This document shows, one piece after another, positions 9,377-62,489 of a stretch of 64,000 bases of DNA. The DNA is from Rhodovarius crocodyli. Its GTDB lineage: Bacteria > Pseudomonadota > Alphaproteobacteria > Acetobacterales > Acetobacteraceae. The stretch spans positions 62,001 through 126,000 of the forward strand of contig NZ_SACL01000005.1 in the NCBI RefSeq assembly GCF_004005855.1, in the 5' to 3' direction. Position 1 is the stretch's first letter; every line of letters starts with the position of its first letter. The notes beneath the pieces were generated by a model. The model saw nothing but the letters and a program-made list of their open reading frames with translations, searched no databases and had not been told where the DNA came from. A program made the translations under genes and the position numbers.

Positions 9377-9378
9377 GC

Positions 9379-9536
9379 GGGGCCGAAAGGCCCCTGGCCC
9401 CCAGGAGTTTGGCTCCCCACCCTGGGAAGGCGTAATTATATTCCTATCTGTCCCACCAGGATGAGCACCAACAGAAGGCAGCTCCGGGAGACACTGTCTC
9501 CTGACGGGCTCCAAGGGCAGAGCCCTTGGTGGGGGT
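9379..9536. repeat. Modular intergenic element, copy A (dnaN-recF)
   Basis: This copy starts 3 bp after dnaN with GGGGCC-GAAA-GGCCCC (9379-9394), a stable GNRA-looped hairpin that may end the dnaN message. It continues with CCCCAGGAGTTTGGC and an AT-rich core around 9432-9450. On the right are GGAGAC/GTCTCC (9487-9501) and CCAAGGGC-AGA-GCCCTTGG (9511-9529). The right half carries the same AGA-looped middle hairpin found in the other copies, and the left half is more degenerate. Its right end overlaps the possible recF start codons (TTG 9526, GTG 9529), so it could affect recF translation. Confidence 0.65.
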
Positions 9537-26300: not shown

Positions 26301-26473
26301 AGCCGGTTGGTCGCATGCGCGATCTCGGGCCCAGCGCGCCCCTTCGCGCAGATGGCAGCCCCGGTCGGATGCGACGGATCCGGCTCGACCTTGACCAGCC
26401 GGCCATCCTCGATGGTGTTGATCGTGCCGCAGCGAGAGCGGCACAGCGTGCAGAAACCGGAAACACGCGCCAT
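23387..26473 (-). CDS. Molybdopterin oxidoreductase-FNR-[2Fe-2S] three-domain fusion
   Basis: Predicted 1028 aa. Residues 1 to about 690 are a DMSO-reductase-family catalytic unit: a [4Fe-4S] site with Cys8, Cys11, Cys15 and Cys42 (FCTLCRSRCG ... ICAKG), a possible Mo ligand Cys141 (ATEICNWHKDSAH), and typical MGD-binding stretches (LLWGHNPSHTW, ARFADILLPV). Next is a ferredoxin-NADP reductase-like part with LPGQYLPVTLGGVERRYSL for FAD and VAAGIGITPFMALLE for NAD(P)H. The end is a plant-type [2Fe-2S] ferredoxin with Cys982, Cys987, Cys990 and Cys1016. One chain can thus move electrons from NAD(P)H to molybdenum or the reverse. The substrate is unknown; no signal peptide means cytoplasm. AAGGAGG precedes the ATG. 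Confidence 0.88.
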   Translation of the reverse strand: MARVSGFCTLCRSRCGTINTIEDGRLVKVEPDPSHPTGAAICAKGRAGPEIAHATNRLTVPLRRTAPKGAADPGWEPITWDAALDEVAARLLAIKAAHGAEAVGFAVTSPSGTPISDAIDWIERLIRVFGSPNTVYATEICNWHKDSAHAFTFGTGITVPDYRNAELILLWGHNPSHTWLAQAEAVAAGQKRGAKLMVVDPRRTGSAAQADHWLQLRPGTDAALALGLIREVIAQGGYDAEFVRRWTNAEQLVEGRPVFELLTEAVALWTPERTAAETGVPAAQIIAAARAIGASRATSYYCWTGVGQHGNATQTDRAIAILMALTGTWDVAGGNREIRRQPARKVSGQHLLPPGQAEKALGLAERPIGPPAMGYITADDLYTAVLEGRPYPVRALVGMGANMLVSQGDTARAEAALKALDFHVQTDLFETPTARFADILLPVSALWEREGLRIGFELTEAAEELVQLRTRMLEPQGQARSDLEITFALATRLGLGEHFFGGDMDAARNWQLEPLGIDLAALRARPEGIRVPLAQTTRLYAQRSPAFATESGLIELYSDKLLRHGQAPLPFHRPVPQPDPAFPLRLTTAKNGFYCHSQQRGFASLRRRSPDPVAEIAPEAAAARGITEGDWLVLATPAGEARFRARIDASLAADVVVAEYGWWQACEPLGEPAPTASSYNALVASLGADPISGSVPMRGIACEARRAGNAAWAGEMVVRALQPEAPDVTSVLLAAPDGRPLPGFLPGQYLPVTLGGVERRYSLSAAPADTYRLTVKRVPGGIGSGHVNDVLRVGDVLPARPPGGHFTMPVRAHFPLVLVAAGIGITPFMALLEAMVGQADAARVVLHYAFRGAAHEVFGTRLRELESLLPALTVMRHDSREGPRFAVADVSPDMIAARARFYLCGPPAMLRETTEALVARGVPRFDIFQEAFLAPPPAEPPPPDAVFPVRFARSGLDAVWRPQDGSLLDLAEAHGLKPPSGCRTGQCESCALRVIEGTARHLVTVNVDDPDCCLACQAVPNTALVIDA

Positions 26474-26535
26474 GAAAGCCCCTCCTTGCCGGGGCGGCAT
26501 TGTCGGGGATGGCGCGGGTGCGGGGAAGGGGTGAA

Positions 26536-26786
26536 CGCCGGGGGCCTTGCCCCCGCCCCCCAGCCAGGGGCGCTGCCCCCGGCACCCCCGCCAGGAGCCT
26601 GAGGCCCCTGGCCCCCCATGAGTGTTCTGAAAGTGTGCGGAAGGGGCTCTGAGCGAACGCGGGGCCAAAGGGCGCTCTGTGCCCCTTCCGCACACTTTCA
26701 GCCCCCGGTTTCCAAAGGCCTTTCGGCCTTTGGCGGGGTGCAGGGGCAGAGCCCCTGGCTGGGGGGCGGGGGCAAGGCCCCCGGCG
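26536..26786. repeat. Modular intergenic element, copy B (44-bp terminal inverted repeats)
   Basis: The ends are 44-bp inverted repeats (26536-26579 and 26743-26786) with one mismatch. Each contains GGGGGC-CTT-GCCCCC and a (C)AGGGGC-TCT-GCCCC-type hairpin; the left copy reads GCT in the second loop. The right inner hairpin is CCAAAGGCC-TTTC-GGCCTTTGG, and the left inner one is a degenerate partner (CCAGGAGCCTGAGGCCCCTGG). The core is a second, 20-bp-arm inverted repeat (see next entry). The element fills the space between the start of the molybdopterin oxidoreductase gene and the stop of gntR, both on the minus strand, and ends 1 bp before the gntR stop. Confidence 0.85.
26628..26700. terminator. 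20-bp perfect inverted repeat in the core of copy B
   Basis: The left arm 26628-26647 (TGAAAGTGTGCGGAAGGGGC) is the exact reverse complement of the right arm 26681-26700, with a 33-nt loop that itself pairs (GAGCG/CGCTC). A stem of this strength downstream of gntR is likely to end or stabilise its transcript; both orientations read ATTTTTC-free ends, so termination would not rely on a long U-run. Confidence 0.6.
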
Positions 26787-26787
26787 C

Positions 26788-27468
26788 TCACCCCCCTCCC
26801 CGCTCCAGCGCCGCCTCGATCAGGGCGCCGTGGGCGCGCAGGTCGCGTTCCATGGCCTGGCGGGCGGCTGCGGGGTCGCGGGCGGCCATGGCGGCCAGCA
26901 GGTCCATATGCGGGTGGGCGCCCGGCACGGCGGAGGTGCCGGGCCGGAACAGCAGGCTGATGGTGGGGCCGGCCTGCAGCCACAGGCTTTCGACCACGCG
27001 GGCCAGCACGGGCATGCGGGCCAGTTCCAGCAGGGCGAAGTGGAAGCGTTCGTTCTCGCGCAGCACCTGGGCGGCGTTGCCGGTGCGGCGGCCCTCGGCC
27101 ACGCCCGCGTGCAGGTCGCGCAGCCGCGCGACATCGGTGAAGGTCGCAAGCTCGGTGGCGCGGGCTACGGCGCGGCCTTCGAGTTCGACGCGCAGTTCCA
27201 TGATTTCCCGGTAACGGGGCAGTTCCAGCCGGGGCACCCAGGCGATGCCGCGCGCGTCCAGTTCCAGCGCGGCTTCGGAGACGAGGCGCAGCAGGGCCTC
27301 GCGCACCGGGGTGGGGCTGACGTTGAGTTCCGCGGCCAGGGTTCGGTGCACCAGGCGCTGGCCGGGCGCGAGCCGCCCGCCGGTCAGCGCGCCACGCAGG
27401 CTGCGATAGACCTTCTCGGTCAGGCTTTCCTCGCGCTCGACCGGCGCCAGCGCCGTGCCCCCGTCCAT
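26788..27468 (-). CDS. GntR-family regulator (FCD type)
   Basis: Predicted 226 aa, normal for GntR/FadR-type FCD regulators. The N-terminal winged helix has SLTEKVYRSLRGALTGGRLA, PGQRLVHRTLAAELNVSPTP and VREALLRLVSEAALEL. The C-terminal helical effector domain contains RYREIMELRVELEGRAVARA and a later His/Asp metal-type pattern (NERFHFALLELA, HMDLLAAMAARD). It is divergent from the ThDP operon at 27539 and a perfect palindrome lies between them, so it probably represses that operon until a pathway metabolite binds. The ATG at 27468 is chosen (GAGGG upstream) over ATG 27504, which would lie inside the palindrome. Confidence 0.88.
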   Translation of the reverse strand: MDGGTALAPVEREESLTEKVYRSLRGALTGGRLAPGQRLVHRTLAAELNVSPTPVREALLRLVSEAALELDARGIAWVPRLELPRYREIMELRVELEGRAVARATELATFTDVARLRDLHAGVAEGRRTGNAAQVLRENERFHFALLELARMPVLARVVESLWLQAGPTISLLFRPGTSAVPGAHPHMDLLAAMAARDPAAARQAMERDLRAHGALIEAALERGGG

Positions 27469-27503
27469 GCATTCCCTCGCTTGACCGAGATCGTCATATC
27501 GCA

Positions 27504-27517
27504 TTTGCTATAGCAAA
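27504..27517. promoter_or_regulatory. Perfect 14-bp palindrome, likely GntR operator
   Basis: TTTGCTATAGCAAA is a perfect palindrome in the 70-bp gap between gntR and the divergent catabolic operon, 22 bp before the operon's GTG start. FCD-type GntR regulators often bind short palindromes with a TAT-like centre. It is well placed to control both promoters. Confidence 0.65.
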
Positions 27518-34308: not shown

Positions 34309-34315
34309 CGCCGTT

Positions 34316-34558
34316 CCGGGGCCTTGCCCCGGCCCCCGCGCAGGGGCTCTGCCCCTGCACCCCGCCAGGACCGTAGCGGCCCTGGACCCCGGGGAGTTGG
34401 CGCCAAACACTGATAGCTTTGATTATTATAATGAAATTGGCGCCCCGCTTACCCAGCGACGGCACCAGCTCCTATCAGGTCCAGGAGATATTATCTCCTG
34501 GCGGGGAGCTTGAGGGGCAGAGCCCCTCAAATCGGGGGCTCCGGGGGCAACGCCCCCG
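34316..34558. repeat. Modular intergenic element, copy C
   Basis: Lies between the convergent stops of the Liv-type receptor and a ThDP enzyme. From the left: CCGGGGC-CTT-GCCCCGG, CAGGGGC-TCT-GCCCCTG, a CCAGG.../...CCTGG stem with central CCGTAGCGG, then GGAGTTGGCGCC. The core is an AT-rich run around 34415-34437 (TTGATTATTATAATG). Then TTGGCGCC again, CCAGGAGAT/ATCTCCTGG, TTGAGGGGC-AGA-GCCCCTCAA and GGGGGC-AAC-GCCCCC. The right half mirrors the left in order, with different stem sequences. Confidence 0.85.
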
Positions 34559-34560
34559 CC

Positions 34561-39414: not shown

Positions 39415-39419
39415 GCCCT

Positions 39420-39604
39420 GGGGCTTTGCCCCGGCCCCCGCCAGGAGCCTGTGGCCCCTGGCCCCACTTGAGTTAACTGAAAAAGCCGGAGAGGGACGAT
39501 GTCCCTCTCCGGCTTTTTCAACTCCCGGTTTCCAAAGGCCTCTCGGCCTTTGGCGGGGTGCAGGGGCAGAGCCCCTGCGCGGGGGTTCCGGGGGCAAGCC
39601 CCCC
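39420..39604. repeat. Modular intergenic element, copy D
   Basis: Fills the gap between the convergent stops of anbu and the DEAD-box helicase. The left half has GGGGC-TTT-GCCCC and a shorter CCAGG...CCTGG-type hairpin (no middle TCT hairpin). The core is a perfect 20-bp-arm inverted repeat, listed separately. The right half has CCAAAGGCC-TCTC-GGCCTTTGG (39532-39552), CAGGGGC-AGA-GCCCCTG (39561-39577) and GGGGGC-AA-GCCCCC (39590-39603). The right half is nearly identical to that of copies B and E over about 50 bp, while the core differs. Confidence 0.82.
39478..39520. terminator. Bidirectional terminator, 20-bp perfect stem
   Basis: TGAAAAAGCCGGAGAGGGAC (39478-39497) and its exact reverse complement (39501-39520) enclose a GAT loop. 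The stem ends in a run of five A's on one side and five T's on the other, so on both strands it is a GC-rich stem followed by U's. It is well placed to end both anbu and the convergent helicase transcript. Confidence 0.85.
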
Positions 39605-39617
39605 AGGTCCACCCCAT

Positions 39618-45910: not shown

Positions 45911-45913
45911 GGC

Positions 45914-46152
45914 GAGGGGCTTCGCCCCCTCGACCCCCAGCAGGGGCTCTGCCCCTGCACCCCGCCAGGAAACTCAGTTTCCTGGACCTTCGGCAAGTTG
46001 GTGCCGGCCTGGGGAACGGGTCTTTAGTTTTAATATCTTGGCGCCCGCCTTTCAGGCTCTGGCGCCAATCATCGGTTTCCAAAGGCCTTTCGGCCTTTGG
46101 CGGGGTGTTTGAGGGGCAGAGCCCCTCAATGGGGTCCGGGGCAACGCCCCGG
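45914..46152. repeat. Modular intergenic element, copy E
   Basis: Lies between pxpA and accC, which are on the same strand. The left half has GAGGGGC-TTC-GCCCC(C)TC, CAGGGGC-TCT-GCCCCTG and CCAGGAAAC/GTTTCCTGG-like stem. The core has a GTTGGTGCC, AT-rich DNA near 46021-46040 and two copies of TGGCGCC. The right half has CCAAAGGCC-TTTC-GGCCTTTGG (46080-46101), TTGAGGGGC-AGA-GCCCCTCAA (46109-46129) and CCGGGGC-AAC-GCCCCGG (46136-46152). It splits what otherwise looks like one operon, so it may lower or stop read-through into accC. Confidence 0.83.
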
Positions 46153-46171
46153 GGCGGCATAAGGTGAGCGC

Positions 46172-53188: not shown

Positions 53189-53190
53189 GA

Positions 53191-53406
53191 CGGGGGCCTT
53201 GCCCCCGATCCCCCACCGAGGGGCTCTGCCCCTCGGCTCCCCGCCAGGAGATCATATCTCCTGGACCTGATAGGAGTTTGGCGCCCGACCTTAGCAGGAT
53301 CGGCACTATTTTATTATTAAAATCAAAATCGTATGGATGACACACCAACTCGCCGGGGTCCAGGGCCGCTACGGTCCTGGCTGGGGCCCCGGGGGCAAGG
53401 CCCCCG
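53191..53406. repeat. Modular intergenic element, copy G
   Basis: Lies between the convergent GMC gene and the Bug receptor gene. The left half is CGGGGGC-CTT-GCCCCCG (53191-53207), CGAGGGGC-TCT-GCCCCTCG (53217-53235) and CCAGGAGAT/ATCTCCTGG (53244-53264), then GGAGTTTGGCGCC. The core has a long AT-rich stretch (53305-53335, TTTTATTATTAAAATC). The right half has CCAGG...CCTGG with central CCGCTACGG (53360-53380) and GGGGGC-AAG-GCCCCC (53391-53405). The right middle hairpin is missing or eroded. Confidence 0.83.
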
Positions 53407-53415
53407 TAGCGCGCC

Positions 53416-62452: not shown

Positions 62453-62471
62453 TCAGGGGCAGCGCCCCTGA
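62453..62471. terminator. Solitary stem-loop after aroC, like the repeat's middle hairpin
   Basis: TCAGGGGC-AGC-GCCCCTGA (62453-62471) starts 1 bp after the aroC stop. It matches the middle hairpin of the modular elements apart from its loop (AGC rather than AGA). CCGGGCGGCAACGC follows and may be a degenerate outer hairpin. It lies between the convergent aroC and pirin genes and likely helps end aroC. Confidence 0.6.
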
Positions 62472-62489
62472 CCGGGCGGCAACGCTCCT

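Follow-up and report, generated by a model that had tools for sequence, protein, structure and literature searches.

Composite palindromic repeats such as BIME-1 and BIME-2, described in E. coli and other bacteria, consist of palindromic units inverted around an exchangeable segment, and are extragenic and present in many copies. REPs are frequent between convergent genes (PMC1525189), and BIMEs vary in length and in distribution between strains (PMC2817692). Other REPs carry a GTAG or CGTC tag at their palindromic units (PMC3733652), while bidirectional intrinsic terminators are single hairpins that are common to two convergent genes (PMC5381666). This study focused on a palindromic locus, element B, within the window, i.e., the whole stretch of 64,000 nucleotides of Rhodovarius crocodyli DNA that was analysed. 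Element B proved to belong to a large family of hairpin elements of modular build, which is apparently new to description: no account of such a family in Rhodovarius or other Acetobacteraceae was found in the open-access literature or in Rfam, and no Rfam family was matched at its gathering score. Weak matches to Rfam hairpins of the microRNA type fell far below the cut-off, and were taken as chance matches to be expected of any long hairpin.

An earlier note on this DNA had described 44-bp inverted termini around a perfect 20-bp inverted repeat, and both are real. The termini are far beyond chance and are contained within outer arms of 52 bp (26528-26579 and 26743-26794), which showed two mismatches and 96% complementarity in a repeat search, while the inner arms, listed in Table 1 as the central stem, are perfect over 21 bp rather than 20 bp and can be extended to 29 bp at 93%. 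Treated as single-stranded RNA, positions 26528-26794 gave folding energy z-scores of -15.5 (plus strand) and -18.1 (minus strand), with none of the dinucleotide shuffles used as reference reaching the native energy on either strand, and each arm also folds alone into three local hairpins. Element B lies between tandem genes, both on the minus strand, which we take from their ORF translations to specify a GntR-type regulator, on the right, and a molybdopterin-oxidoreductase-like protein, on the left. The left ORF is large and starts at 26473, 62 bp from element B. The earlier note had the right end abutting the gntR stop; the right arm extends through the stop codon (26788-26790), which is inside the element. 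As had also been noted, no target-site duplication is visible next to the ends.

Table 1. Parts of element B and the adjoining gene, with positions in the window.
Feature	Position	Strand	Basis
Whole composite palindromic element B	26528..26794	- (strand of adjoining gntR)	Outer inverted repeat limits
Left outer hairpin h1, GGGGGCCTTGCCCCC	26540..26554	+	Sequence; family alignment
Left second hairpin h2, CCAGGGGCGCTGCCCCCGG	26564..26582	+	Sequence; pairing across copies
Left third hairpin h3, b-type, CCAGGAGCCTGAGGCCCCTGG	26591..26611	+	Several pairs with compensated changes in 8 copies
Central stem, left arm, CTGAAAGTGTGCGGAAGGGGC	26627..26647	+	Repeat search; stem alignment
Apical loop, 33 nt	26648..26680	.	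Copy comparison
Central stem, right arm, GCCCCTTCCGCACACTTTCAG	26681..26701	+	Repeat search; stem alignment
Right third hairpin, a-type, CCAAAGGCCTTTCGGCCTTTGG	26712..26733	-	Motif count in genome
Right second hairpin h2	26741..26757	-	Sequence; pairing across copies
Right outer hairpin h1	26768..26782	-	Sequence; pairing across copies
GntR-family regulator ORF, stop within element's right end	26788..27504	-	ORF list

Relatives of element B were numerous. BLASTN recovered about 40 places in its own genome, the good ones 75-89% identical over about 245 bp, and a covariance model built from 146 positions at the centre, trained on own-genome copies, matched about 60 places there and about 100 in the sister species Rhodovarius lipocyclicus (CCUG 44693); the own-genome numbers come from the searches and are approximate. 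The existence of other copies, raised by the earlier note, is borne out by these dozens of related sequences, and the copies display abundant extragenic palindromic units in composite inverted arrays. Of 120 genomes sampled from the taxonomic family, 27 contained related centres (E <= 1e-6), with the plan unchanged and the hairpin sequences different.

The design of the family is fixed and polar, with two arms of short local hairpins flanking a central cassette. From left to right, the stop codon is followed by a linker close to GGGCGCRCTCC, hairpin h1 of the GGGGGCCTTGCCCCC type, ACCCC, h2, ACCCC, h3 of the b- or c-type, a spacer close to GAGT, and the central cassette, after which the other side follows in reverse, as the a-type h3, h2, and h1. 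The h2 module is GGGGCTCTGCCCC with an extended stem, and in some copies the c-type h3, CCAAGGGTCGTAACGACCCTTGG, takes the place of the b-type. The a-type h3 is the most conserved module, with 58 copies in the R. crocodyli genome and none for a reversed-pattern control. The outer modules of the sister species are often exchanged for another hairpin, of the GCGAGAGGGGCTTTGCCCCCCTCGC type.

Centre types were classified in 114 copies. The long-loop centre, found in 54 copies including element B, has a stem of about 21 bp and a loop mostly of 30-34 nt, the sequence of which varies across copies at an almost constant length, with no conserved pairs predicted. Eighteen copies carry a short-loop centre, in which a 21-bp stem (GAAAAAGCCGGGAGGGGAC...GTCCCCTCCCGGCTTTTTC) encloses a loop of 3 nt. 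By eye, this variant is terminator-like on both strands, with A5/T5 at the stem ends, and a bidirectional terminator is a plausible role for it; the terminator scan does not call it, probably since its A and T tracts pair with each other. Element B's long-loop centre has no T-run, and no terminator was called there by the pattern scan. A reading of the variable tip on a palindrome as an integron attC-like site was dropped, as no conserved GTTRRRY/RYYYAAC pair was seen by eye. Most of the remaining 42 centres consist of an AT-rich cassette, about 83 nt long, that starts with TTTGGCGC and ends with GCGCCAA.

Several further composites are present in the window. One with a short-loop centre (GAAAAAGCCGGAGAGGGACGATGTCCCTCTCCGGCTTTTTC) lies between convergent genes at 39415-39617 and resembles a bidirectional terminator. 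Composites of the same plan with the AT-rich centre (TTGGCGC...TTGATTTTTATAAT...GCGCCAA) occur at 34309-34560, 45911-46171, and 53189-53415, and a shorter element with this centre is at 9377-9528. The AT-rich cassette sits in a genome of 70% G+C, was seen in about 30 copies in R. lipocyclicus, and matched nothing in Rfam; it is possibly a structured cassette in its own right or else a small element inserted there.

The position of the copies relative to genes is distinctive. For 109 copies from R. crocodyli and R. lipocyclicus together, gene orientations, as called by a simple codon-usage gene caller, were convergent at 78, tandem at 30, and divergent at only one, compared with 7 convergent, 36 tandem, and 7 divergent gene pairs in the window as background (Fisher p ~1e-11 for the convergent excess, 0.001 for the divergent deficit). 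More distant relatives gave 7, 9, and 0, respectively. A copy lying between convergent genes mostly takes up the entire gap. All three convergent gaps of more than 50 bp in the window are occupied by a composite element. At 38 of 83 ends in the R. crocodyli genome the first hairpin begins 9-11 nt past the stop codon, and it is from this genome that the consensus of the intervening linker was derived. A further convergent pair in the window is separated by a 37-bp gap (62453-62489) holding one simple hairpin only (GTCAGGGGCAGCGCCCCTGAC), possibly a precursor state of the composite.

Comparison of 26 copies showed that pairing is local. The arm hairpins self-pair at 0.96-1.00 at their best positions, against about 0.5 in permuted copies, and at the pairs flanking the h2 core the complementarity within a hairpin is mostly 0.8-1.0, with about 0.5-0.7 in permuted copies. 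Between the left and right arms, on the other hand, the match at most positions does not exceed the permuted level, falling to 0.23 against 0.52 at the position next to the h2 core, and the h2 types of the two sides are negatively associated (Fisher p = 0.006 in the R. crocodyli genome; stratified p = 0.002 over the two genomes). Every copy has inverted hairpin arms, but these are complementary to each other no more than by chance. A nested cruciform, which the earlier note had considered for the whole element, is rejected as the conserved fold by this arm-to-arm permutation test; the conserved parts are a row of local hairpins and the central stem.

The same comparison bears on the proposal that element B is a single copy made by recent duplication or gene conversion of an arm, as its near-perfect ends had suggested. 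Its outer arms are indeed the longest near-perfect ones among 53 copies in the genome, with the median copy far below, but element B is then the extreme of a series rather than a special case, every module of both arms recurs elsewhere in other combinations, and a large family shares the identical plan. With arm-to-arm identity not exceeding the permuted expectation, and a family alignment that largely refutes it, this origin is very improbable. Element B has 44-bp inverted ends because both of its arms carry the same hairpin types. Most copies avoid such likeness of the arms, probably because long perfect palindromes are prone to instability or would interfere with the local hairpins.

The central stem changes frequently from copy to copy and almost always in both of its arms: 38 cells had the two partners altered together, 3 were wobble cells, and 14 were broken or gapped. 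Across 72 stems of the two species there were 27 non-Watson-Crick cells, in which G-T (9) and A-C (6) were about equally frequent. In Bacillus cereus, the intermediate seen most often in one-strand terminators is G-U (PMC5381666). A one-strand RNA role of the centre is unsupported, since wobble is not favoured over A-C, and the pattern fits use of both strands, selection at the DNA level, or arm-by-arm correction; scarcity of wobble would also be expected from template-switching correction of the arms without any function.

Selection at the DNA level would apply if the element absorbed supercoils between convergent genes, as a cruciform or gyrase site or a site for IHF or a nucleoid protein, with RNA folding being incidental. 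The perfect complementarity with no preference for wobble is in keeping with such a role, as is the strong enrichment in convergent gaps, in which positive supercoils accumulate (an argument made in PMC1525189), and the alternative cassette is AT-rich, while the inter-REP segment of BIME-1 in E. coli binds IHF (PMC2817692). However, the conserved units are local hairpins of 13-22 bp and not long arms, the arms are if anything kept unlike each other, which works against a long cruciform, and the exact IHF consensus was present in none of the 42 other centres, most of them AT-rich. A structural role in DNA is judged improbable.

Comparison with R. lipocyclicus revealed turnover. Both species carry an element at six sites where the two flanks are conserved, and the genes flanking orthologous copies are mostly about 80-91% identical; L002, L003, L008, L011, and L013 were left out of the flank comparison, their synteny being broken. 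At three of the six (L016/L125, L028/L123, and L030/L135), the sister copy is in the opposite orientation and has a short-loop centre, and at the other three (L015/L031, L098/L118, and L107/L112) both orientation and centre type are unchanged. At a further site, L010/L262, the sister species has the AT-rich cassette as centre. Orthologous long-loop cores were, in four of five pairs, less alike than copies within each species. The same element at the same place with normal divergence, the outcome by which the earlier note would have refuted its own reading, is not what was found, as orthologous sites often differ in cassette or orientation.

Two syntenic sites lack the composite in R. lipocyclicus. 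At the gntR site (L001/L060), where the gntR orthologue is 82% identical, the comparison that the earlier note had proposed showed that the composite is missing and that two other short hairpins are there instead. The fully syntenic site L005/L255 has one simple hairpin. Sites have therefore been gained or lost, and no target duplication is visible at either of the two. The suggestion that the element supplies stop codons was unsupported at L005, where the stop codons of both species are at corresponding places. The hairpins at the gntR site (L060:1392-1519) are in tandem, TTGAGGGCCTTGCCCTCAA and TTGAGGGGG...CCCCCCTCAA, joined by ACTCCCA, and follow the same grammar with other units.

These observations bear on whether the family is mobile but non-autonomous, in the manner of a MITE or REPIN, and depends on a transposase acting in trans, with the 3' ends of genes being merely tolerated sites. 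The dozens of copies per genome, their polar organization and constant size, the conserved termini (GGGCGCRCTCC) beside stop codons, and the differing sites, including the two without a composite, all agree with mobility, and the earlier note is supported to this extent: the repeat is dispersed, and the gntR site of the sister species is without it. A REP-associated transposase, for which it had proposed a search, was not detected, as there were no PF01797 (tyrosine transposase) matches in the R. crocodyli or R. lipocyclicus genomes, although three of eight copy-bearing genomes have one. Moreover, the two unoccupied sites have small hairpins of their own and no target duplication, at least six sites are common to both species on both flanks, and orthologous copies are unlike in cassette and orientation, which simple insertion would not predict. 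Mobility of this kind is considered unlikely, although less so than a structural role in DNA.

The reading favoured here, and held to be probable, is that of a BIME-like composite family of gene 3' ends, in which two hairpin 3' UTRs stand back to back, share a centre, and turn over by recombination between copies. Judging from anatomy and position, each arm would serve its adjoining gene as a 3' UTR, with hairpins that could stop 3' exonucleases, reinforce termination, and shield against opposing polymerase. In a transcript from either gene, the fold of each half suggests that the hairpins would form in succession and the central stem would close the RNA. The shared centre would serve both strands, being openly terminator-like in the short-loop variant. 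For the long-loop centre of element B a part in termination is uncertain because a T-run is absent, and it may instead protect the mRNA 3' end or act as a road-block to opposing polymerase. The very similar arms of different copies would be substrates for recombination or gene conversion, which would swap the cassette and could invert it, so that the same site differs between related species; recombination between similar arms would thus explain the cassette swaps and inversions. Enrichment in convergent gaps, the spacing from the stop codon, local pairing, the unlike h2 types of the arms, changes on both sides of the stem, and site turnover all count for the 3'-end module. The location of element B between tandem genes, as for about a quarter of the copies, and its long-loop centre free of T-runs count against it.

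A more tentative extension, considered unlikely, is that the elements are exchangeable 3'-end cassettes throughout the family, the arms being a docking frame and the centre being swapped and inverted, at fixed sites at gene ends, by recombination between copies or by some enzyme. If this is true, gene ends would be re-equipped in evolution as a population of modules, and not via point mutation. The family suggests how a G+C-rich alphaproteobacterial family equips its convergent gene ends, and offers a remarkably clear example from nature of cassettes being swapped and inverted at fixed sites with a recognisable transposase absent. Its spread over 27 of the 120 genomes makes comparative testing feasible.

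Like BIME-1 and BIME-2, the Rhodovarius elements are extragenic, present in many copies, and have palindromic units inverted around an exchangeable segment, and like REPs they are often found between convergent genes. They differ from BIMEs in that the sequence is unrelated, each arm has up to three different hairpins in a fixed order, and the centre is of one of three kinds, namely a long stem that co-varies, a stem resembling a terminator, or an AT-rich cassette; there is also no RAYT gene in the R. crocodyli genome and no GTAG/CGTC tag at the units. With the GTAG- and CGTC-tagged REPs they share the character of short palindromic DNA repeats, and CGTC REPs are likewise without a dedicated transposase (PMC3733652), but no more than 15 of 361 units had GTAG/CTAC or CGTC/GACG close to the base of the stem, and the tags were judged absent. 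Bidirectional intrinsic terminators (PMC5381666) resemble them in having a hairpin common to convergent genes and compensatory change, and the short-loop centre is bordered on either side by A and T tracts. They are, however, single hairpins, whereas the terminator-like stem here, when present, is within a composite repeat of 200-260 bp, and element B's long-loop centre without a T-tract is unlike them. As both the transposase and the GTAG/CGTC tag are missing, the family is therefore called BIME-like, rather than a member of the RAYT-mobilised REP family.
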